64,000 nucleotides of DNA from Cupriavidus gilardii J11. Lineage in GTDB: Bacteria; Pseudomonadota; Gammaproteobacteria; Burkholderiales; Burkholderiaceae. Below, piece after piece: positions 13,481-26,664 of the stretch. The position numbers and the translations under genes are program-made. The stretch is taken from the NCBI RefSeq assembly GCF_007829435.1, contig NZ_VLJN01000009.1, forward strand, positions 11,367 through 75,366, given 5' to 3'. Below the pieces are notes generated by a model. The model was given only the letters and a program-made list of their open reading frames with translations, did not search any database and was not told the DNA's origin. The first letter of the stretch is position 1; every line of letters starts with the position of its first letter.

Positions 13481-15127
13481 TCAATAAACATCCCGCCGAT
13501 ACCTCCCCTCCTCCGTCAGCGCCAGCACCGCCTCTTCGCCCAGCACCTCCACCAGCGCCGCATGGACGCCGGTCGCCATCCCCTGCAGGCTGCCGCACAC
13601 ATAGATCGACGCGCCCTCGCCCACCCATGTCCGCAACTCGTCGGCCGCCGCCCGCACGGCGTCCTGCACATAGCGCAATCGCCCGCCATCGCGCGACCAC
13701 ACCAGATCGGCGCGTGCCAGCAGTCCCCGCTGGCGCCAGGCGCCCAGTTCGCCGGCGAAGAACGCGTCATGCGCGGCGCTGCGTTCGCCGAACAGCAGCC
13801 AGTTGCGGCCGTGTCCCCGGGCCGCGCGCGCCTTCAGCAGCGCGCGCAGCCCTGCCATGCCGGTGCCGTTGCCGATCAGGATCAGCGGACGGTCGTCGTC
13901 GGGTGGGCGAAAGGCGCGGTTGCCGCGGATGCGCAAGGCAATGTCGCCATCGAGCGGTGCGTGTGCCGTCAGCCAGCCCGAAGCCAGGCCCAGGCTGCCA
14001 TCGGGCCGCCGCGCCTGTCGCACCAGCAGTTCGATTCCGCCATCGGCGGGCAACGACGCGATCGAGTACTCCCGATGCGGCAACGGCGGCAGCGCATCGA
14101 TCAGCCCCTGCGCATCGAGTTCGCGCAGCGCGGCCGTCGCGCTCCGCGGCAGGCGCAGCCGTGTCGACAGCGCCTCGGCCAACGTCATGTCCATCCCGTC
14201 GCAGCGCACCGTCGCCGCACCGTCGTGGCCCAGCTCGCTCAGCCAGTCCCTGACCTCGTCGTCGGCGTGGCGCGCGCCCACTTCGGCGATATCGCCGGCC
14301 TGCCAGGCGGGCGCTTCGTCGCCGGCCGGCACCAGCGTCAGATGGAAAGCCGGGGCGCCCGCGCTGCCGGCGTTGAGCAGCACCCTCTGGCGCAGGCGCC
14401 AGCGCCCGTAACGCGGCGCGTCCCAATCCGCGATCTCGGCGCCGCCGGCCAGCGCCGACAGGTGGTTCTGCCAATGGCGCAACGCACCCGGGTCGCCATT
14501 GTCGACCTCGACCGGGTCGAACAAGGGCTGCGCATGATGACGCTGCAGCCATTCGGACAACCCCCTTCCGTAGGCGCAGAACCGCGCATAGCTGCTGTCG
14601 CCCAGCGCCAGCAGGCCATAGCGTAACGACCGCAGGCTGCCGGATTGCGCCGCGCGGGAGAGCTTGCGCGTGAAGCCAGCGGCGCTGTCCGGCGCATCGC
14701 CTTCGCCCGTGGTGCTCACGATGAACAGCGCCTGCCTGCAGCGCGTCAGCAGTGCGGCATCGAGATCGGCAAAGGACAGCATGCGCGCCGGCAAGCCGGC
14801 CTGCCGCAACGCCGTCGCGGTCTGCGTGGCAAGCTGTTCGCCAAAGCCGGTCTGGCTGGCATAGGCGACCAGCGTGACGTCTTCATCGGCCTGCGCGCCC
14901 GCTTCGCTGCCGGTGCCGGCGCGGCGCCAGCGATGGCGCAGCACGATGGCCGCGCAGAAACCCGCGTAGGCCGCGGCCACGCCGGCCGCGCTGGCCCACT
15001 TGTCCGGCGCGGCCCATGCAAGCGCCCCGCCGGCCGCGGCCAGCAGCCAGGCGCCCGCGAGAACCATCGCCCGTGAGCGCGGCGGTGCGGCAGATGGTGC
15101 GGAAGCGTTCAAGACGGACCGCGTCAT
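13481..15127 (-). CDS. sulfite-reductase-like flavoprotein (flavodoxin + FNR domains)
   Basis: 548-aa diflavin reductase of the CysJ/P450-reductase type. A membrane anchor (about residues 20-60, two hydrophobic helices) precedes a flavodoxin domain with the FMN loop YASQTGFGEQLATQ and the second loop ALGDSSYARFC. The FNR part has the FAD phrase REYSIASLP, the NADPH-binding GNGTGMAGLRALL and the family C-terminal GRYRRDVY. Its start (ATG at 15127) overlaps the stop of the ApbE gene by four bases (ATGA). Together with the PepSY membrane protein it probably takes electrons from NADPH to periplasmic acceptors such as ferric siderophores; PepSY-flavoprotein fusions in pseudomonads support this. 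The same pair could instead serve another periplasmic reductase. Confidence 0.85.
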   Translation of the reverse strand: MTRSVLNASAPSAAPPRSRAMVLAGAWLLAAAGGALAWAAPDKWASAAGVAAAYAGFCAAIVLRHRWRRAGTGSEAGAQADEDVTLVAYASQTGFGEQLATQTATALRQAGLPARMLSFADLDAALLTRCRQALFIVSTTGEGDAPDSAAGFTRKLSRAAQSGSLRSLRYGLLALGDSSYARFCAYGRGLSEWLQRHHAQPLFDPVEVDNGDPGALRHWQNHLSALAGGAEIADWDAPRYGRWRLRQRVLLNAGSAGAPAFHLTLVPAGDEAPAWQAGDIAEVGARHADDEVRDWLSELGHDGAATVRCDGMDMTLAEALSTRLRLPRSATAALRELDAQGLIDALPPLPHREYSIASLPADGGIELLVRQARRPDGSLGLASGWLTAHAPLDGDIALRIRGNRAFRPPDDDRPLILIGNGTGMAGLRALLKARAARGHGRNWLLFGERSAAHDAFFAGELGAWRQRGLLARADLVWSRDGGRLRYVQDAVRAAADELRTWVGEGASIYVCGSLQGMATGVHAALVEVLGEEAVLALTEEGRYRRDVY

Positions 15128-16206
15128 GCCAGCATCGCCGCAAAGGCCGGCGTCACAACCTCTGCAAACCCGTCGGGCGTGCGAACGAGCATGCGGGCGG
15201 CGATGCCATGGCGTTCGGCCAGCCGCGCGCCGGCATCGGGGCCGAGCACGGTCAGCGCCGTCGACCACGCATCGGCCAGCATGCATTGCCGATGCAGCAC
15301 GGTGACCGACGCCAGCGCATGTTGTGTGGGATACCCGGTACGCGGGTCGATGGTGTGAGCATAGCGCTGGCCGTCGCTATCGAAATAGCGGCGGTAGTCG
15401 CCCGAGGTCGCCACCGACAGTCCGTGCAGCGCGACCACGGTGAGCTGGTATTCCGGACGCTGTTCGGGCCGCTGTCCGGCCCGCGCGGAAATCGCGGGCG
15501 GGCTTTCCAGTTCGACCCACCATGGCATGCCGTCAGGCTTCACCCCCTCGCCCCGCAGTTCGCCCCCGACCTCGACCAGATGATGGACGACGCCTTGCGC
15601 GCGCAACCACGCCGAGACGGCGTCGACGGCGTAGCCCTTGGCGATCGCGCACAGGTCCAGCGACAGGCCGCCCGGCTGGCACACGCGCCGGCCGTCGCTA
15701 TCCACTTCGACACGGCGCCATCCGCAGCGTGCGCGCGCGGCGTCGATGTCCGCCAACGCCGGCGGCGCCGTGCGCGGACCCGACGGCCCGAAACCCCACA
15801 GGTCGACCAGCGGCCCGGCCGTGGGATCGTAGGCGCCGCCGCTGTCGCCCGCGATCGTCAGCGCCGCCTCCAGTACCGCGAAGCAGGCGGCCGGCAACAC
15901 GTGCCAGCTGCCCGGCCCGGCGCGGTTGAAGCGGCCGATATCCGAGTCCTCGCGCCAGTTGCTCATTTCGGCGACGACCCGATCCAGCACCGACTGGACG
16001 CCGGCGGCCAGCCGGTCCTCGACATCGCCGCCACCGTCGTCATCGAGCAGCCCCTGCACCGACCAGCTGGTGCCCATGCTGAGCCCGTGCGCGCGGAACA
16101 TCGGTGCCGACGCGGGTGGCAGTGCAGGCGGGCCGTCGAGATGGACCGGGACCAGCACGCGCCGGTCCGACGATGCCCGCGGGGATGCCTGCACGGATGC
16201 CGCCAT
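15124..16206 (-). CDS. apbE: FAD:protein FMN transferase (ApbE)
   Basis: 360-aa ApbE-family flavin transferase, which links FMN covalently to Thr or Ser of target proteins using FAD and Mg2+. Recognised by GLSMGTSWSVQ near the N terminus, MSNWREDSDIGRFN, the substrate segment LSLDLCAIAKGYAVDAVSAW, the VEVGGELRGEG loop and HTIDPRTGYPTQHALASVTV with the metal-binding region. No lipobox or signal peptide is seen, unlike many periplasmic ApbEs, so it may act in the cytoplasm. It sits within the PepSY operon, 4-bp overlap with the flavoprotein gene and 16 bp after the DUF4198 gene, which suggests that one of the operon's redox proteins carries covalent FMN. Confidence 0.92.
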   Translation of the reverse strand: MAASVQASPRASSDRRVLVPVHLDGPPALPPASAPMFRAHGLSMGTSWSVQGLLDDDGGGDVEDRLAAGVQSVLDRVVAEMSNWREDSDIGRFNRAGPGSWHVLPAACFAVLEAALTIAGDSGGAYDPTAGPLVDLWGFGPSGPRTAPPALADIDAARARCGWRRVEVDSDGRRVCQPGGLSLDLCAIAKGYAVDAVSAWLRAQGVVHHLVEVGGELRGEGVKPDGMPWWVELESPPAISARAGQRPEQRPEYQLTVVALHGLSVATSGDYRRYFDSDGQRYAHTIDPRTGYPTQHALASVTVLHRQCMLADAWSTALTVLGPDAGARLAERHGIAARMLVRTPDGFAEVVTPAFAAMLA

Positions 16207-16222
16207 GTCGCGAGCCTGCCGC

Positions 16223-17059
16223 TTACTGCGGCAACACCTCGAAGGTCGCCATGTAGGCGGCGCGCCGTTCGGCCGCGCGGGGAATGCTGGTCTTGTTGTC
16301 GCGCACTTCCGCTTCGATCCAGTACATGCCGGGCGCCGGCCATTTGATGGCGAAGCGGCCCTCCGCGTCGGTACTCAGCTTGAACGCGCCAAGCTGGTCG
16401 CGATAGCGGTTCCCGCCGGGCACCACCTCGACCTCGACATTGGCGGCCGGCTTGCCATCGAGCAGCAGCTGGAAGTTGGCCGGCTCGCCGGCGAACAGGT
16501 CGTTCGGATGCGTGCCCGGTGCCAGTTCCAGCCCGCGGCCGGTGGTCTTGAACACCTCCGTGGTGGGCTTGCCGGCGGTGACGAACGTTTCGAGCCGCGT
16601 ATCGGACTGGGTGATCTTCAGTTCCTGCGCATTGGCCGGCACGGCCTTGGCCAGGCCCTCGGCGCTGCCGCGATAGCGCTTGGCCTGGCCATTCTCCTTG
16701 TAGCTGGCGAACACGCCGTGATTGACCACCGCCATCTTGTAGGTGCCCGGCTGCGTCAGGTGCACATCGAAGGTGCTGCGATAGCGCCCGGTGCTGGCGT
16801 TCTCGACCTTGGCGGCGCTGCCGTCCGGCGCGCTGACGGAAAGGTTGTCCAGCTTCAGCGGGAAATGTTCGAAGTAGAACAGGTCGTTGGACACCGCCGC
16901 ATCCACCGTCACCCACGGGTCGTTGCCCGACAGCACGGTGGCCGACGGCAGCAGCCACTGCCGGTGGGCGTGGGCGGCCAGCGGCACCAGCGCGGCCAGC
17001 GCCAGCGCCGAAATGCGGGCGCAAGCCCGGGCGGAAAGACGGATCTTGGAAGGCTTCAT
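16223..17059 (-). CDS. DUF4198 periplasmic protein
   Basis: 278-aa secreted protein with a signal peptide (basic start, hydrophobic LALAALVPLAAHAH, predicted cleavage after AHA). The mature protein begins HRQWLLPSATVLSG, the signature of DUF4198, a family with Ig-like and transthyretin-like beta folds found with metal transporters (NikM-like). The C-terminal half is a carboxypeptidase-regulatory-like fold with YRDQLGAFKLSTDAEGRFAIKWPAPGMYW. The start at 17059 has a good site (AGGAG). Third gene of the PepSY operon. It probably binds a metal or supports cofactor handling in the periplasm; this is inference from operon context. Confidence 0.85.
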   Translation of the reverse strand: MKPSKIRLSARACARISALALAALVPLAAHAHRQWLLPSATVLSGNDPWVTVDAAVSNDLFYFEHFPLKLDNLSVSAPDGSAAKVENASTGRYRSTFDVHLTQPGTYKMAVVNHGVFASYKENGQAKRYRGSAEGLAKAVPANAQELKITQSDTRLETFVTAGKPTTEVFKTTGRGLELAPGTHPNDLFAGEPANFQLLLDGKPAANVEVEVVPGGNRYRDQLGAFKLSTDAEGRFAIKWPAPGMYWIEAEVRDNKTSIPRAAERRAAYMATFEVLPQ

Positions 17060-17121
17060 CGACGAGCTCCTGAGCGCGAGGTATGGATGGATCGAAGGAA
17101 AGGGAAAACCGGCCCGCGGCT

Positions 17122-17655
17122 TCACGGCTTCACGGTGACGGTCACCGCGCCGAGTTCGTGCTCGCCCCTGGCCTGGGCGGACTTCGACGCCTGCGGCGGC
17201 CAGCTGAACGGCACGCGCAGCAACTCGCGGCCGCCGACTTCGCGCGCCGCCTCGACCACCAGCTGGTAGTCGCCGGCCGGCAGCGTAGCGAGCGGCGCCT
17301 TGCCCGCGGCAAACGACACGCTGTGCTCGCCGGGAGCGCGCGTGGCGCCGGAAATCCCGTCGGCCGGCATCTGCATGTCGCGGCCAGCCTTGCGCCACCA
17401 CTGGCGCATGTCCTTGAGCCACTTGGTGCCCTCGGCGTTCTTCAGCTTGACGTCGTACCAGACCGCCAGCGTGGACACCGGGCTCTGGTCGGCACGCTCG
17501 ACCCACATCGCCACATAGGGCCTGTGATACTCGGCCACCGACAGGCGCGGTATCTCGACCTTGACATTGAGCTCCGCCGCGCCGGCAGCTCCAGCGAATC
17601 CGGTCAGGGGCAACGCGGCCACGCCGCTCAACGTAACGGACAGCAAACGACGCAT
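17122..17655 (-). CDS. DUF2271 periplasmic protein
   Basis: 177-aa exported protein. A signal peptide ending AGAAGA/AE is followed by ELNVKVEIPRL and the family core YVAMWVERADQSPVSTLAVWYD, with the KWLKDMRQWWRKAG helix and the phrase DGISGATRAPGEH (about residues 100-112). That last part resembles the flavinylation motif DG(x)SGAT used by ApbE in FMN-binding proteins: Thr in SGAT would be the attachment site. With apbE in the same operon, this protein is a strong candidate for a covalently flavinylated electron carrier between the membrane PepSY protein and its acceptor. The motif is visible; covalent FMN is inference. Confidence 0.85.
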   Translation of the reverse strand: MRRLLSVTLSGVAALPLTGFAGAAGAAELNVKVEIPRLSVAEYHRPYVAMWVERADQSPVSTLAVWYDVKLKNAEGTKWLKDMRQWWRKAGRDMQMPADGISGATRAPGEHSVSFAAGKAPLATLPAGDYQLVVEAAREVGGRELLRVPFSWPPQASKSAQARGEHELGAVTVTVKP

Positions 17656-17668
17656 CGATAAAACCTCG

Positions 17669-18307
17669 TTAATGGATAAACAGGATGGCCAGCAGCAACG
17701 GCACGACGAGGCCCAGCCCGACCATCGGCCAGGTGGCCACCCGTCCGGCCGCGTGCAGCTTCAGCAGGAACAGGCCCGTGATCGAAAACACCAGGCACGC
17801 CAGTGCGAACACATCGATAAACAGGCTCCACGCCGCGCCGGTGTTGCGGCCCTTGTGCAGGTCGTTCAGGTACGAAATCCAGCCGCGCGTGGTCAGCTCA
17901 TACTGCGCCTCGCCGCTTTCGCGATCGATGCTGACCCACGCGTCGCCGCCGGGGCGCGGCAGCGCCACGTAGATTTCATCCGGCGACCACTCGGCGGCGC
18001 GGTCCTGCGCATCGACGCCGAACTCGCGCGCGAGCCAGTCGACGACCGCCGTCGGCAGCGGTGCCTTGTCGCTCCGTGCCGGCTCGCGCAGCGCGGCGAT
18101 CACCGGCTGCGGCGCGACGGCGTTGCGCGTGACCACGGTTGGCGCGGCTTCGATCTGGCCGGCATGGTTCAACGTGAACCCGGTCACGGCGAACAACAGC
18201 ATGCCGATCAGGCACAGCGCGGAGCTGATCCAGTGCCATTGATGCAAGTGCTTTAGCCAGAAGGCGCGGCGTTGCTGGCTCGCGCCGAGGGAGGATTGGG
18301 TCATCAC
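17669..18307 (-). CDS. PepSY-associated transmembrane protein
   Basis: 212-aa membrane protein, first gene of the operon. An N-terminal helix with conserved His residues (LKHLHQWHWISSALCLIGML) is followed by a periplasmic PepSY-like segment (about 50-140), then helices around AWSLFIDVFALACLVFSITG and PMVGLGLVVPLLLAILF. The histidines in HLHQWHW and in NDLHKGR could ligate heme, as proposed for PepSY_TM ferric reductases. It likely passes electrons across the inner membrane. Spacing to the DUF2271 gene is 13 bp. A Fur-like box lies about 130 bp upstream at 18437. Confidence 0.85.
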   Translation of the reverse strand: MMTQSSLGASQQRRAFWLKHLHQWHWISSALCLIGMLLFAVTGFTLNHAGQIEAAPTVVTRNAVAPQPVIAALREPARSDKAPLPTAVVDWLAREFGVDAQDRAAEWSPDEIYVALPRPGGDAWVSIDRESGEAQYELTTRGWISYLNDLHKGRNTGAAWSLFIDVFALACLVFSITGLFLLKLHAAGRVATWPMVGLGLVVPLLLAILFIH

Positions 18308-18734
18308 GGTGTATCGGTGCCACGGTTGGCGCGGCGGTGTTGCAAAGGCGCCGGACCGGAGCGGCGTCGACAGGGAAAAGTGATTGCGTCGACGCCTCGG
18401 GATCGTTTGCTATGCCCCACAAAGGCAAGACGAAAGGATAATTGTTCTCATTTGGAACCGCAATCGTCCCGTGGAAGGCACGTATTACAGCACGTTACGC
18501 CCGAATCGACGCAGGGCACGGTAACGTCAACGCTGCACCCTCACCCACGCTGTGCGGCCGGCTTCATGTCGGCCGCATGAAAGATGGCGCCAAACGCATC
18601 TTACTAGCACGAAATCGTGCCAGGACCTACATATGGAAAGTCCTATGCGCGTCGGGCATCAAGCTGCCTGCCGGCGCGCCGTTATCGAGCCCACAACCAT
18701 AACTTCACCAGGGTCAGAGACGGGGAACATTGCG
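18308..18734. other. divergent regulatory region
   Basis: 427 bp between the PepSY operon and the chemoreceptor gene. It contains the Fur-like box at 18437-18455. The rest is A/T-richer than the genes around it, and I see no conserved ORF: the possible upstream starts of the chemoreceptor add residues with no family similarity. Confidence 0.5.
18437..18455. promoter_or_regulatory. Fur-like box upstream of the PepSY operon
   Basis: The 19-mer GATAATTGTTCTCATTTGG keeps the GATAAT half-site and a degenerate second half (TCATT) of the Fur consensus. The function of the operon, probable iron reduction, agrees with control by iron. The match is partial. Confidence 0.5.
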
Positions 18735-20288
18735 ATGCTGGAACGCCTTAGCTTAAGAAAGAAACTGCTGCTGCCATTGGTATTGACGTGGCTGTGCCTG
18801 CTGGCCATCGTGCTCTGGAATGCCTGGCAGATGCGCGAGCTGCGGCTGGAAGAACGCCGGACCGACCTCGTCCACGTGACCGAGACGGTGCTCACCATCA
18901 TCGGGCAGTACGATGCCGAAGCGCGTGCCGGCAAGATGAGCGCCGAGGAAGCGCAGAAGCGCTCGATTGCGAAGATCCGCTCCATCCGGTTCGGCGTCGA
19001 CGGTTACTTCACCGTGATGCGCTCGGACACCACGCTGGTCATGCATCCGATCAAGCCGGAGCTGGACGGCAAGAACATGGGCGACTTCAAGGACCCGGCC
19101 GGCAACTATCTGTTCCGGGACATCGCCGCCGTGGCCAAGGGTGAGGGACGCGGTTTCGTCCATTACCTGTGGCCGAAACCCGGCGCCGACGCCCCCCAGC
19201 CAAAGCTCAGCTATGTGGCATCGTTCAAGCCCTGGGACTGGAACTTCATCACCGGCGTGTATCTGGACGACCTCGACGCCGCCTTCCGCGCGTCGCTGTG
19301 GCGCTCGCTGGGGCTGCTCGTGGTGATCGGCACGCTGATGACGCTGGTGGTCGTGCGCATCGCCAACGGCCTGCACCGGCAACTGGGCGGCGAGCCGGTG
19401 CTGACCTCGCAGATCGCGACGCGCATCGCCGAGGGCGATCTGGCCAGCCCGGTGCAGGTCGCCCCGGGCGACCAGCGCAGCGTGCTGTTCGCCATGCAGC
19501 AGATGCAGCGGCGGTTGACCGGCGCCATCGCCACGATCCGGGGATCGGCCGATTCGATCGCCGGCGCCGCCAAGCAGATCGCCGCAGGCAACGCGGACCT
19601 GTCCCGCCGCAGCGAGGAGCAGGCCGCCTCCCTGGAAGAAACCGCCGCCAGCATGGAACAGCTCACCAGCACGGTACGCCAGACCGCCGACAACGCGCGC
19701 CAGGCCAGCCGGCTGGCCGAGGGCGCATCGGATATCGCCACGCGCGGCGGCGAGATCGTGCAGCAGGTCGTCGTCACCATGGGCGACATCAAGGAGGCGT
19801 CCGGAAAGGTGGTGGACATCATCGGCGTGATCGAAGGCATCGCCTTCCAGACCAACATCCTGGCGCTCAACGCGGCGGTGGAAGCCGCGCGCGCGGGCGA
19901 TCAGGGGCGCGGTTTCGCGGTCGTCGCCGGTGAAGTTCGCAGCCTGGCCCAACGCAGCGCCACCGCCGCCAAGGAGATCAAGGCGTTGATCGGCAATTCG
20001 GCGCAGCGCGTGGACGACGGCGCGGTGCTGGTGGAAAACGCCGGCAAGGCCATGCACGAGATCGTCGATGCGATCAAGCGGGTCACCGACCTGATGGGCG
20101 AGATGCGCGCCGCCACCGAGGAGCAGACCGGCGGCATCGAGCAGGTGAACCAGGCGGTCACGCAGATGGACCAGATGGCCCAGCAGAACGCGGCGCTGGT
20201 CGAACAGGCGGCCGCGGCGGCGGCGTCGCTGGAGGATCAGGCGGACGCGCTGCATCGCGCGGTTGGGACGTTCCGGCTCGCTATGTGA
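18735..20288 (+). CDS. methyl-accepting chemotaxis protein with single Cache domain
   Basis: 517-aa chemoreceptor. TM1 lies at about residues 11-31, a periplasmic single-Cache (sCache_2) sensor at about 35-180 with [20 protein letters not shown] and [20 protein letters not shown]2 near 190-212, then a HAMP and the signalling hairpin. The tip sequence is [20 protein letters not shown], matching 36H-type MCPs, with methylation helices rich in Glu and Gln. There is no C-terminal CheR-tethering pentapeptide; the protein ends TFRLAM. sCache_2 domains commonly sense small carboxylates such as lactate, pyruvate or C2-C4 acids. I chose the ATG at 18735 because TM1 follows directly. Confidence 0.92.
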
Positions 20289-20730: not shown

Positions 20731-20942
20731 GATGCTCTCCCGGAGAGAACCTTGCCGCGACTTTACCTCGGATCGGCTTTGCACCATGGCGCCATAGTGG
20801 CCATGCAAAGGGCACTTCCTTAGCGTGATCGGGTGATGTACTTGGGGAGCCGCACCTCCTCGCCCGTCTCGCATGGCGGCGCATGGCGGCCATGTCTCGA
20901 TGGGTCCGAACGAGATCAACCAAGCTTGCAGAAAATTCTTGT

Positions 20943-20970
20943 TGTAATGAGATCAATTCTCATTTACTAT
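20943..20970 (+). promoter_or_regulatory. sigma-70-like promoter overlapped by a Fur-like dyad
   Basis: TTGTAA (20943-20948) and TACTAT (20965-20970) are spaced by 16 bp. Between and across them lies AATGAGATCAATTCTCATT (20946-20964), an inverted repeat with 7-bp arms AATGAGA/TCTCATT. It resembles Fur boxes of the TGAGAATnATTCTCA type. A repressor bound here would block the promoter. The only downstream plus-strand products are the hairpin-rich region and the small cysteine protein at 21383. Confidence 0.55.
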
Positions 20971-21118
20971 GGCATCACTGTCCGACGCCCAGCACGCAGC
21001 GAAGCCTCAAGTTCCGCAGCGTCCGGCTAGCGGCAGAACGGCCAGCCTCCGTCTGGCGGCCAAAGGTTTTCAGCGGCGGCGCGCCTTCGCGTCGCCCGTC
21101 ACGGTCTTTTGTGGGGAC

Positions 21119-21330
21119 CGCTCCGTACCGCGGAGCGTTTGGCAGTAGCCAGTCGCCAGAGGATCGGGAAAGCAACCAGACCCCGCTTTCCCGATCGCAA
21201 CCCTCCGGCGGCAAGCAAAGCCACCTTTTTATTCCTGCGCGCCGTGCCCGGCACGGCGCGCCTCTCCAGGCGCCGTCGCGCGCCATCCGGCGCGGCAGCC
21301 GGAATACCGGCCGGCAAGCACGCCGGCCGG
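21119..21330 (+). ncRNA. hairpin-rich leader or small RNA region
   Basis: Five strong inverted repeats lie in 210 bp: 21119-21137 (6-bp stem), 21162-21196 (12-bp perfect stem GATCGGGAAAGC, 11-nt loop), 21207-21230 (weak stem followed by TTTTT, a possible terminator), 21237-21261 (12-bp near-perfect palindrome) and 21307-21330 (9-bp stem CCGGCCGGC). No frame through here looks coding. With the Fur-box promoter at 20943 it could be an iron-regulated small RNA of about 250 nt, or a long 5' leader of the gene at 21383. I do not recognise a known RNA family. Confidence 0.4.
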
Positions 21331-21382
21331 CCTCATCGATTCGCCTCGACTGTCTCCACACCAGACCACATGGAGCAGCAAG

Positions 21383-21634
21383 ATGAACCGTCTCTTCAAA
21401 CCCATCAATGAGATCAGGCGCATTCTGGCCGTGCACCTGCGTCAGCAACCGGGCTGTCACGATTGCCGGCTGCGCGCGGTATGCGTGCACCGTCCCGACC
21501 ATACCGGCTGCAACTGGAGCGCCGAGGTGGATTTTCCCCAACGCAGCGACGACGATGCCATACGCGATCTGCGACAGGCCCGCCGCGTCATCATGCTGGC
21601 GCGCGAGCGCTACAACGTCAGTCCAGCCCCGTAG
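21383..21634 (+). CDS. small four-cysteine protein of unknown function
   Basis: 83-aa protein that I do not recognise. It has a compact cysteine cluster: Cys25, Cys28, Cys34 and Cys43 in PGCHDCRLRAVCVHRPDHTG and just after it, with His in between, suggesting a zinc or Fe-S site. N-terminal helix NRLFKPINEIRRILAVHLR and C-terminal helix DAIRDLRQARRVIMLARER flank it. The ATG at 21383 follows GAGCAGCAAG, a modest ribosome site. The frame has normal codon usage and ends before the DMT exporter, which is convergent. If transcribed from 20943 it would be iron-regulated, which fits a metal-binding protein. Confidence 0.6.
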   Translation: MNRLFKPINEIRRILAVHLRQQPGCHDCRLRAVCVHRPDHTGCNWSAEVDFPQRSDDDAIRDLRQARRVIMLARERYNVSPAP

Positions 21635-21720: not shown

Positions 21721-22632
21721 TCACGGACGGCCCGTCGCCGGCACCGCGACGGCGCGAGCCGGCCGCAACACCAGCCAGACCGCCACGCCGATCAGCGCGC
21801 CTCCGGCGGCATGGGCCCACGACAGCGTTTCGCCAAGAAACACCGCGCCCCACACGATGCCGAATGGCGGGATCAGGAACGTCACCGTCAGCGCCCGCAC
21901 CGGCCCGATATCGGCAATCAGGCGGAAATACAGGATATAAGCCAGCGCCGTGCAGACGACGCCCAGCGCCACCATCGCCGCCCACACCGTGGGCGTGGCA
22001 TCGGGCAAGGTGTTGTGCCGCAGCAGCGCCGCGGCGGAAAACGGCAACAGGAACAGCGTCGCCCCGACCATGCTGCCAGCCGCGACAAGGCGAGCATCCA
22101 GCCCGCCGCGCTCGGTGATCCATCGCCGGGTGAGGAATCCCGCCAGCCCGTAGCATGCCGTCGCCGCCAGGCACGCCAGCGCGCCCAGCAGCACCTGTGG
22201 CGTGAAGGCCACTGGGCCGGTGCGCGTCAGCACGGCGACGCCCGCGACACCAATCACCACGCCGGCCGCCTTGGCAAGCGTCAATCGCTCGGCGAAGCAC
22301 AGCGCGCCGATCACGACGCCCATCAGCGGCGTCATGGCATTGAAGACGGCAGAGTAGCCGGCCGGCAACCAGAGCGCGGCCACGGAATACATCACGAACG
22401 GAATCCCGGAATTGATGACGCCAAGCGCCATCACCGCGCGCCACTTCCCTTGCATCCGCCAGCGCATGCGCATCAGCGCCAGACAGCCCGCCAGCGCGGC
22501 CGCACCCACCAGCACACGTACGAACGCCGCAGGCAAGGGCCCAAGCACCGGCGCACCGATGCGGATAAACAGGAAGCTCGCGCCCCAGATGGCGGAAAGG
22601 GTGAGGAGGCGAACGAGATCGGAGGTGGCCAT
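21721..22632 (-). CDS. EamA-family DMT exporter
   Basis: 303-aa membrane protein of the drug/metabolite transporter superfamily with ten predicted helices in two EamA repeats. The first has SAIWGASFLFIRIGAPVLGP and ends IGVAGVAVLTRTGP; the second has ALACLAATACYGLAGFLTRR and FLIPPFGIVWGAVFLGETLS. Proteins of this group (RhtA/YdcZ/RarD relatives) export amino acids or other small metabolites. The gene is alone. Substrate is not predictable. Confidence 0.88.
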   Translation of the reverse strand: MATSDLVRLLTLSAIWGASFLFIRIGAPVLGPLPAAFVRVLVGAAALAGCLALMRMRWRMQGKWRAVMALGVINSGIPFVMYSVAALWLPAGYSAVFNAMTPLMGVVIGALCFAERLTLAKAAGVVIGVAGVAVLTRTGPVAFTPQVLLGALACLAATACYGLAGFLTRRWITERGGLDARLVAAGSMVGATLFLLPFSAAALLRHNTLPDATPTVWAAMVALGVVCTALAYILYFRLIADIGPVRALTVTFLIPPFGIVWGAVFLGETLSWAHAAGGALIGVAVWLVLRPARAVAVPATGRP

Positions 22633-25178: not shown

Positions 25179-25257
25179 CGGTCGGGACATGCGGCGGCCG
25201 CCGGTGCGGCGTATCCTACGGGACTCATCGTTGGAAACGCGATCACAGGAGCCCGCC

Positions 25258-26664
25258 ATGCCCGAACCCGCCGTTGCCGCTACCCGCATCGAAAAGGACA
25301 GCCTCGGTGATGTCGCCGTCCCCGCCGACCATCTGTGGGGCGCGCAAACCGAACGCTCCCGGCAGAACTTCCGCATCGGCAGCGAGAAGATGCCGCCGGC
25401 GCTGATCGAGGCGTTCGCGATCCTGAAGCGCTGCGCCGCGCGCGCGAACCAGGAGCTGGGCGTGCTGGAGCCCAGGCTGGCCCAGGCCATAGAGCAGGCC
25501 GCCGACGAAATCATCGAAGGCAAATGGCCGCAGGAGTTTCCGCTGTCGGTATGGCAGACCGGCTCCGGCACGCAGACCAATATGAACCTGAACGAGGTCA
25601 TCGCCAACCGCGCCATCCAGCTTCTCGGCGGCGAAGTCGGCAGCAAGCGTCCGGTCCATCCGAACGACCACGTCAACGCCAGCCAGTCGAGCAACGACAG
25701 CTTCCCCACCGCGATGCATATCGCGGCGGCGCGCGCGGTGCAGCGGCAACTGCTGCCGGCACTGGAGACGCTGCAGAAGGCGTTGGGCACCAAGGTCGAA
25801 GCCTTCGCCGACATCGTCAAGGTCGGCCGTACCCACCTGCAGGACGCGGTGCCGTTGACGCTGGGGCAGGAATTCTCAGGCTACCAGGCACAGGTGGCCG
25901 ACGCGCAGGCGCGCCTGCACCAGGCCGTGCTGCGCGCGATGCCGGTGCCGCAGGGCGGCACCGCCGTGGGCACCGGGCTGAACGCGCCGGCCGGGTTCGC
26001 CGCCGCCTTCGCGCGCGCGCTGGCTGATTACACCGGCTTGCCGTTCGAGCCCGCGCCGAACCGCTATGCATTGCAGGCCGCGCACGACGCGCTGGCCGAC
26101 CTGTCCGGCGCGCTCAATACCACGGCGTCGTCGTTCCTGAAGATCGCGCGCGACTTCATGCTGCTCGGCTCTGGCCCGCGCGCCGGCTTCGCGGAATTGC
26201 AGCTGCCGGCCAATGAACCGGGCTCTTCGATCATGCCGGGCAAGGTCAACCCGACGCAGGCCGAGGCGCTGGCGATGGTGTGCTGCCGCGTGATCGGCAA
26301 CCACACCACCATCACGCTGGCCAACGGGCTCGGCACGCTTGAGCTGAATGCCTACAAGCCGGTGATCATCTACAGCCTGCTGCAATCGGTCACGCTGCTG
26401 GCCGATGCGGCCGCCAGCTTCGCCGACCATATGGTCGCCGGGGTGGAAGCGGACCGCAACCGCATCGCCGAACTGCTGGAACGCTCGCTGATGCCCGTGA
26501 CCGCGCTCAATCCGCATATCGGCTACGACAAGGCCGCGGAAATCGCCAAGCTGGCGGTCAAACGCAACCTGTCGCTGCGCGAGGCCGCGATCGAATCCGG
26601 GCATGTCAGCGCGGAGCAGTTCGAGCAGTGGATCGACCTGCGGGGGATGACCAGGGAGGTTTGA
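25258..26664 (+). CDS. fumC: fumarate hydratase, class II
   Basis: 468-aa homotetrameric, iron-independent fumarase interconverting fumarate and L-malate in the TCA cycle. The fumarase/aspartase signature GSSIMPGKVNPTQAEA is intact and contains the catalytic Ser loop. TGSGTQTNMNLNEVIANRA and HPNDHVNASQSSNDSFPTAM build the substrate sites, and VGRTHLQDAVPLTLGQEFSG the catalytic His region. Start ATG at 25258 with CAGGAG six bases upstream. Class II enzymes replace iron-sulfur fumarases under iron limitation or oxidative stress; regulation cannot be read here. Confidence 0.96.
   Translation: MPEPAVAATRIEKDSLGDVAVPADHLWGAQTERSRQNFRIGSEKMPPALIEAFAILKRCAARANQELGVLEPRLAQAIEQAADEIIEGKWPQEFPLSVWQTGSGTQTNMNLNEVIANRAIQLLGGEVGSKRPVHPNDHVNASQSSNDSFPTAMHIAAARAVQRQLLPALETLQKALGTKVEAFADIVKVGRTHLQDAVPLTLGQEFSGYQAQVADAQARLHQAVLRAMPVPQGGTAVGTGLNAPAGFAAAFARALADYTGLPFEPAPNRYALQAAHDALADLSGALNTTASSFLKIARDFMLLGSGPRAGFAELQLPANEPGSSIMPGKVNPTQAEALAMVCCRVIGNHTTITLANGLGTLELNAYKPVIIYSLLQSVTLLADAAASFADHMVAGVEADRNRIAELLERSLMPVTALNPHIGYDKAAEIAKLAVKRNLSLREAAIESGHVSAEQFEQWIDLRGMTREV

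Follow-up and report, generated by a model that had tools for sequence, protein, structure and literature searches.

The closest described relative of the RNA examined here is the iron-sparing small RNA (sRNA) BrrF (ncS63) of B. cenocepacia, whose B. thailandensis counterpart is BTH_s39 (PMC7377471). That report states that iron depletion induces BrrF more than 50-fold in B. cenocepacia, that the low-iron repression of acnA, fumA, sdhA, sdhC, sodB and katB needs BrrF, with acnA a strong target, and that control of the tested targets is lost or weakened, sdhC and sdhA excepted, when the BrrF 5' end is mutated (pBrrF-d3) (PMC7377471, Sass and Coenye). It also describes BrrF as a product of hemP mRNA processing that is encoded behind hemP in every case, places its 3' end in B. 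cenocepacia at a U run, and states that Cupriavidus holds only BrrF nucleotides 4–76 (PMC7377471). RyhB of E. coli and PrrF of Pseudomonas aeruginosa, as presented there, are preceded by a direct Fur-box promoter and have iron-enzyme genes such as sodB and sdh among their targets (PMC7377471).

The analyses presented here concern a locus within a 64,000-nt stretch of Cupriavidus gilardii J11 DNA (hereafter the window; contig NZ_VLJN01000009.1, positions 11,367–75,366), for which homology, covariation, conservation of the Fur box, the types of locus and the conservation of seeds and targets were all established from sequence. We consider it highly probable that the RNA encoded at 21106–21232 is brrF2, a paralogue of BrrF that is driven by a Fur-controlled promoter and spares iron when iron is low. 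In kind it would be a known BrrF sRNA; what appears to be new is a hemP-free paralogous locus that has its own Fur promoter and is followed by a conserved small protein, and we found no description of a hemP-free brrF copy in the open-access papers searched. If true, this reading adds to the BrrF iron-sparing sRNA a form that does without hemP and is controlled by Fur directly, and it revises two published claims, namely that hemP precedes brrF in every case and that Cupriavidus has the 5' part only.

The BrrF-type RNA and its promoter

At a permissive threshold, the candidate RNA matches all 130 positions of RF02692, the BTH_s39 family model, with 59.9 bits (E 7e-14), and so lies below the gathering score of that family (77 bits). 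None of the 40 relatives searched reached this score either, though 24 of them match: the matching relatives are all 24 genomes from the genus of the window, and the 16 genomes from other families of the order give no match. Across the family, 107 of 150 genomes, in 13 of 25 genera, match the model and 59 of the 150 reach the gathering score, in a search whose stricter filters were able to lose weak matches. At the Rfam gathering threshold, the only match of any family within the window is a glycine riboswitch aptamer elsewhere (RF00504, 41527–41644, plus strand, 66.1 bits); the window contains no tRNA or tmRNA. Membership of the RyhB or PrrF families was considered and rejected, there being no Rfam match to either in the window at gathering or in 20900–21400 up to E 10; the likeness of promoter arrangement and of predicted targets is one of analogy only. 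A riboswitch was likewise rejected, since no Rfam riboswitch was found in 20900–21400 up to E 10 and the matches other than BTH_s39 were at chance level.

Table 1. Features of the brrF2 locus and its neighbours, in window coordinates
Feature	Position	Strand	Remarks
Chemoreceptor gene	18552–20288		5' neighbour of the brrF2 locus
Sigma-70 type promoter	20942–20970	+	From sequence; kept in alignment; start inferred
Fur box AATGAGATCAATTCTCATT	20946–20964	+	Predicted; overlaps the -35 element and spacer
Leader	20977–21105	+	Poorly conserved; promoter to conserved RNA
brrF2, probable BrrF/BTH_s39-type sRNA	21106–21232	+	RF02692 positions 1–130
5' seed UUUUGUGGGG	21107–21116	+	Complementary to fumA and sodB leaders
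Helix 1 hairpin	21119–21137	+	Both bases differ at 5 of 7 pairs when brrF1 and brrF2 types are compared
SL3 hairpin, 11-nt loop	21162–21196	+	Compensatory changes at some pairs
SL3 loop seed AGACCCC	21178–21184	+	Complementary to sdhC Shine-Dalgarno GGGGUCU
U tract TTTTTATT	21226–21233	+	Expected sRNA 3' end; homologue ends at a U run
GC hairpin without U tract	21237–21261	+	hemP-linked copies have a hairpin with T4–5 at the equivalent place
83-aa conserved protein, Cys25/28/34/43, core HRPDHTGCNWSAEVDFP	21383–21634	+	
EamA transporter gene	21721–22632	-	Convergent; 3' neighbour of the mini-protein

The 127-nt core (21106–21232) folds with -57 kcal/mol (z -4.8), as good a fold being obtained in none of 200 shuffles, and agrees with the secondary structure of RF02692 in its model match, its compensatory changes and its covariation. 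In helix 1 the covariation score is 0.442, against 0.047–0.127 for slid controls, and is reached by none of 500 shuffles. Of five measures compared with shuffles for the helices, two are unremarkable, namely changes on both sides of a pair (72 of 500 shuffles equally high) and additional pair types (496 of 500). The alignments A1 and A2, the latter comprising 26 of 52 distinct copies, were built solely from copies containing TTTTGTGGGGACC, and the invariance of the TTTTGTGGGGACC columns is therefore by construction; the RF02692 searches are free of that selection. The strong stem-loops described in the initial annotation are thus real, as judged from the z-score of the core and the covariation of helix 1, and the stem covariation that it had put forward as a check is found in helix 1 and, as compensatory changes at some pairs, in SL3. 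Its possible internal terminator at 21207–21230, a short closing stem followed by TTTTTATT, is best taken as the 3' end of the sRNA, and the hairpin at 21237–21261 is stronger than that closing stem.

Upstream of the RNA, a -35 element TTGTAA (20942–20947) and a -10 element TACTAT (20965–20970) are separated by a 17-bp spacer, and transcription is likely to start near A20977. The dyad at 20946–20964 is the sole zero-mismatch match in the window to AATGAGA-N5-TCTCATT; two window sites have at most three mismatches, against 0.53 expected, and at least two such sites arise in 9 of 100 shuffles. The promoter pair with a Fur-like dyad first noticed in the window is borne out by its relatives: the promoter is kept in their alignment, and a predicted Fur box (15–17 of 19 identities to a consensus) occurs 117–200 nt 5' of the RNA in all 35 distinct brrF2 copies. 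No hemP ORF is present in the leader (20977–21105), and brrF2 thereby departs from the published description of BrrF as lying downstream of, and being processed from, hemP mRNA. The last nucleotides of the leader, before CUUUU, read ACCG(A/T) in 33 of 35 brrF2 copies and ACGGT in the window, resembling the BrrF cut between CGA and GUAUU given in the published account (PMC7377471).

Set beside BrrF/BTH_s39, brrF2 shows full-length homology, a fold recognized by the family model with two 5' hairpins and a third hairpin bearing an AGACCCC loop, the same 5' arm UUGUGGGGACC, a U run at the expected 3' end, and predicted sites in sdhC, fumA and sodB. It is unlike BrrF in having its own Fur-box promoter at the above distance and no hemP, in starting with CUUUU rather than GUAUU, in falling under the Rfam gathering score, in that no acnA site was found near the start, and in preceding a Fur-family paralogue gene, a mini-protein gene, or both.

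Two locus types in the genus

Genomes of the genus carry two types of copy, brrF1 behind hemP and brrF2 directly behind a Fur promoter without hemP. The two are paralogous RNAs that share the 5' arm and helix 1; they differ in that the brrF1 Fur box precedes hemP and is 442–555 nt away from the RNA in each of 17 distinct copies, and that the brrF1 RNA is followed by a hairpin with T4–5. A T run of at least four accompanies this hairpin in all 17 distinct brrF1 copies (T4–5), against one of 35 distinct brrF2 copies (L006), three Ts being present in L003–L005. Both types occur together in 14 of 24 genomes, and brrF2 stands alone in the other 10, which include that of the window and one assembly that is 54% complete (G012). 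The hemP-linked sRNA was accordingly not found in the window genome or in nine more from the genus, of which one is incomplete; in the window genome hemP itself lies on another contig (L119, C18) and has a good Fur box, AATGATAACGATTCTCATT, with no brrF behind it.

That brrF2 might be a decaying, functionless duplicate of the hemP-linked brrF1 would fit with its having no hemP and with its score under the Rfam cut-off, but we find this scarcely credible, considering that every one of the 24 genomes of the genus has brrF2 and 14 have brrF1, that the sdhC seed, the SL3 loop AGACCCC, is kept in 35 of 35 distinct brrF2 copies but in 8 of 17 distinct brrF1 copies, and that the helices of brrF2 carry compensatory changes. 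In a second genus (g40), which we take to be perhaps Ralstonia, two second brrF copies (L255, L257) have a Fur box about 395 nt upstream and no AGACCCC loop, and look as if control of sdhC had passed to brrF2.

Two seeds and their predicted targets

Candidate targets (sdhC, fumA, sodB and acnA) were scanned between -30 and +5 around the start only, using the best match per genome (15 sdhC, 15 fumA and 13 sodB, with further paralogues left out; a sodB match was absent in 2 of 15 genomes, and acnA was covered in 10 of 15). All 15 genomes of the genus that were scanned have GGGGTCT at sdhC, with which the SL3 loop is predicted to pair at -14.1 kcal/mol; the motif occurs at none of 351 background starts, which derive from heuristic gene and start calls at mixed loci. 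Outside the genus, with BrrF status taken from the family-wide model search described above, GGGGTCT lies 5' of sdhC in 25 of 25 BrrF-positive genomes, which represent 12 other genera, and in 1 of 22 BrrF-negative genomes of the family, a comparison that covers 47 of 60 genomes (4 of the window's genus, 4 without sdhC and 5 with truncated or weak matches were left out) and whose start-choice rule favours GGGGTC-like or AGGAGA-like sites in both groups. The lone BrrF-negative genome with the motif is 1.2 Mb in size, and its genus also has a BrrF-positive member.

In all 15 genomes of the genus scanned for fumA, the 5' arm UUUUGUGGGG is predicted to pair with the fumA leader, just upstream of the start, at -15.9 to -18.1 kcal/mol. 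In other genera, classed as BrrF-positive or BrrF-negative in the same way as for sdhC, a pairing of -13 kcal/mol or better is found in 25 of 28 BrrF-positive and 1 of 18 BrrF-negative genomes, a contrast obtained from 46 of 60 genomes (4 of the window's genus and 10 without fumA left out) with the Cupriavidus 5' arm used for every genus, and one to which composition may contribute, the BrrF-negative genomes being more distant, often reduced and AT-rich. The exact Cupriavidus fumA words recur in 1 of the 28 BrrF-positive genomes of other genera, so that the pairing alone is kept. Neither the sdhC nor the fumA family counts are independent, because the genomes are related. With sodB, the 5' arm is predicted to pair at -11.9 to -16.3 kcal/mol in 13 of 13 genomes of the genus, the window's sodB being the weakest (-11.9), with 10.8% of background starts as good.

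At acnA there was no notable pairing within -30 to +5 in 10 genomes, the window's not among them, 19–98% of background starts doing equally well; acnA was accordingly rejected as a brrF2 target within that interval, a result which speaks against carry-over of the full BrrF regulon, or else would mean that the site lies elsewhere. The fumC gene (25189–26664, plus strand) lies 3.6 kb downstream of the mini-protein gene, and no notable pairing was seen at its start in the window (25258); in B. cenocepacia, BrrF is reported to activate fumC through a site 65–75 nt upstream (PMC7377471).

If borne out, the evolutionary comparison lends evidence to the existence of two seeds with separate targets: the sdhC Shine-Dalgarno sequence, with which the SL3 loop goes together across 12 other genera, and fumA and sodB, at which the 5' arm is directed. 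This two-seed reading predicts that mutations of the 5' end should spare sdhC and sdhA, which is what the B. cenocepacia study describes (PMC7377471). The proposal in the initial annotation of an iron-regulated sRNA of RyhB-like role is well supported, by inference, from BrrF homology, the Fur-box promoter, covariation and complementarity to sdhC, fumA and sodB, and brrF2 is very probably made at iron shortage to shut down iron-using enzymes. Counted among the points against the brrF2 reading is a tagRNA-seq study (PMC7563307).

We suggest the following course of events. With iron plentiful, Fur-Fe would sit on the box at 20946–20964 and block the promoter; when iron is short, the promoter would fire at about 20977 and give a transcript of about 255 nt ending at the U tract near 21230, which would probably be trimmed at about 21106, as BrrF is. 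The 5' arm would then pair immediately before the start of fumA and, less strongly in the window genome, before that of sodB, and the SL3 loop AGACCCC with the sdhC Shine-Dalgarno sequence, and these pairings may block translation or hasten decay of the mRNAs for iron enzymes, so that iron is spared.

The downstream genes and a possible feedback unit

Behind the RNA, the 83-aa ORF with Cys25/28/34/43 that had been called from the window alone proves to be a real gene, with 24 orthologous loci at 63–79% identity (the closest named relatives being in C. cauae and C. gilardii) and a dN/dS of 0.11–0.26 in nine comparisons with the window copy, indicative of purifying selection. Metal binding, as proposed in the initial annotation, is a possibility at most: all four cysteines are kept in the window and in 24 of 24 orthologous loci, but a paralogue found elsewhere in the window genome and in others (46–51% identity) has Arg at Cys34 and has sometimes lost Cys28, and it is Cys25 and Cys43 that are invariant among 42 sequences when orthologues and paralogues are considered together. 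The mini-protein matches no Pfam and no NCBIfam family up to E 10, has no match in a plasmid collection, and gave a single chance-level match (E 0.77) in a profile search of the PDB. Its AlphaFold model is a small alpha/beta fold predicted with confidence (pLDDT 92), for which the best Foldseek match has E 0.15 and a VIA Z of 6.5 to the MamM C-terminal domain lies in the range of common arrangements. An iron or metal role is suggested from position alone.

A Fur-family gene stands between brrF2 and the mini-protein gene in 18 of 24 orthologous loci and is absent in the remaining six and in the window. In one example examined, its product scores 145.7 bits against PF01475 and, across 132 residues, shares 64% identity with the canonical-looking Fur encoded in the window genome. 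We infer that this fur paralogue was lost in the window lineage. In genus g40 the order Fur box, brrF2, fur paralogue, mini-protein was found in the four loci that were read, and 13 of 13 genomes of that genus have a mini-protein match no more than about 1 kb away from a brrF match; since the full order is present in both genera, the unit probably predates their split. The brrF2 RNA would then be the 5' leader of a brrF2–fur paralogue–mini-protein unit, which in the window is missing the fur paralogue, and as such a fraction of the transcripts might extend into the mini-protein gene. With regard to the riboregulated leader put forward in the initial annotation, read-through from brrF2 into the downstream genes is plausible, given that the hairpin mostly has no U tract and that a fur gene follows in the majority of relatives.

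Two other explanations bear on this arrangement. According to the first, brrF2 ends before 21235 and the mini-protein is an unrelated neighbour, with its own promoter and no iron role. BrrF does end at a U run in B. cenocepacia (PMC7377471), the mini-protein paralogue has no Fur box within 200 nt upstream at 15 loci, and at two further loci of the genus, L090 (G010) and L365 (G004), brrF2 and the fur paralogue are present and no mini-protein was seen behind them. To be weighed against these points are a four-element order (Fur box–brrF2–fur paralogue–mini-protein) that is retained at 18 of the 24 orthologous loci, its recurrence in the four g40 loci read, and the finding that 34 of 35 distinct brrF2 copies have no clear terminator between the RNA and the genes. 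We regard an unrelated neighbour as a serious possibility, if somewhat short of probable. Upstream of the mini-protein paralogue (L002:1501-1737, L027-L060), ATTCAATTGG and CCTAGATT-like words are found about 20 nt apart at many of the 15 loci examined for a Fur box.

According to the second, the structured RNA is mainly a cis-acting leader, of an attenuator or riboswitch-like kind, of a fur paralogue–mini-protein operon rather than a trans-acting sRNA. Its position upstream of the fur paralogue and the mini-protein in most relatives, and the hairpin after the RNA that mostly has no U tract of the sort seen in hemP-linked copies, are what would be expected of such a leader. The RNA nevertheless persists where the fur paralogue is missing (the window and 6 of 24 loci) and where no mini-protein follows brrF2–fur (L090, L365); moreover, the homologous sRNA has BrrF-dependent trans targets, and both seeds fit targets whose sites track the presence of the RNA across genera. 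We therefore judge a mainly cis-acting role to be improbable, and retain the reading of brrF2 as a trans-acting, iron-sparing sRNA.

Considering how brrF2 could have arisen, we tentatively put forward a scenario that is possible rather than probable, in which, in the common ancestor of Cupriavidus and the second genus, a copy of brrF left its place in the hemP mRNA and came directly under a Fur promoter, a read-through feedback unit was formed, and brrF2 became the main BrrF. The copy would have landed before a fur paralogue and the four-Cys mini-protein gene, and a weakened terminator would have allowed one Fur-controlled transcript to yield the sRNA, a second Fur and the mini-protein, such that an sRNA, a regulator and a possible metal sensor might constitute a feedback unit on one promoter. 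Degeneration of the hemP-linked copy at the sdhC seed, or its loss, would on this scenario have left brrF2 as the main BrrF.

Finally, a second Fur-like dyad, AAGGATAATTGTTCTCATT, occurs in the window at 18434–18452 (plus strand), with two mismatches to AATGAGA-N5-TCTCATT. The dyad is flanked by the chemoreceptor gene on one side and by PepSY_TM_like_2, DUF2271 and ApbE genes on the minus strand (15127–18307) on the other, and because this dyad adjoins it, the PepSY_TM_like_2/DUF2271/ApbE cluster may be iron-regulated too.
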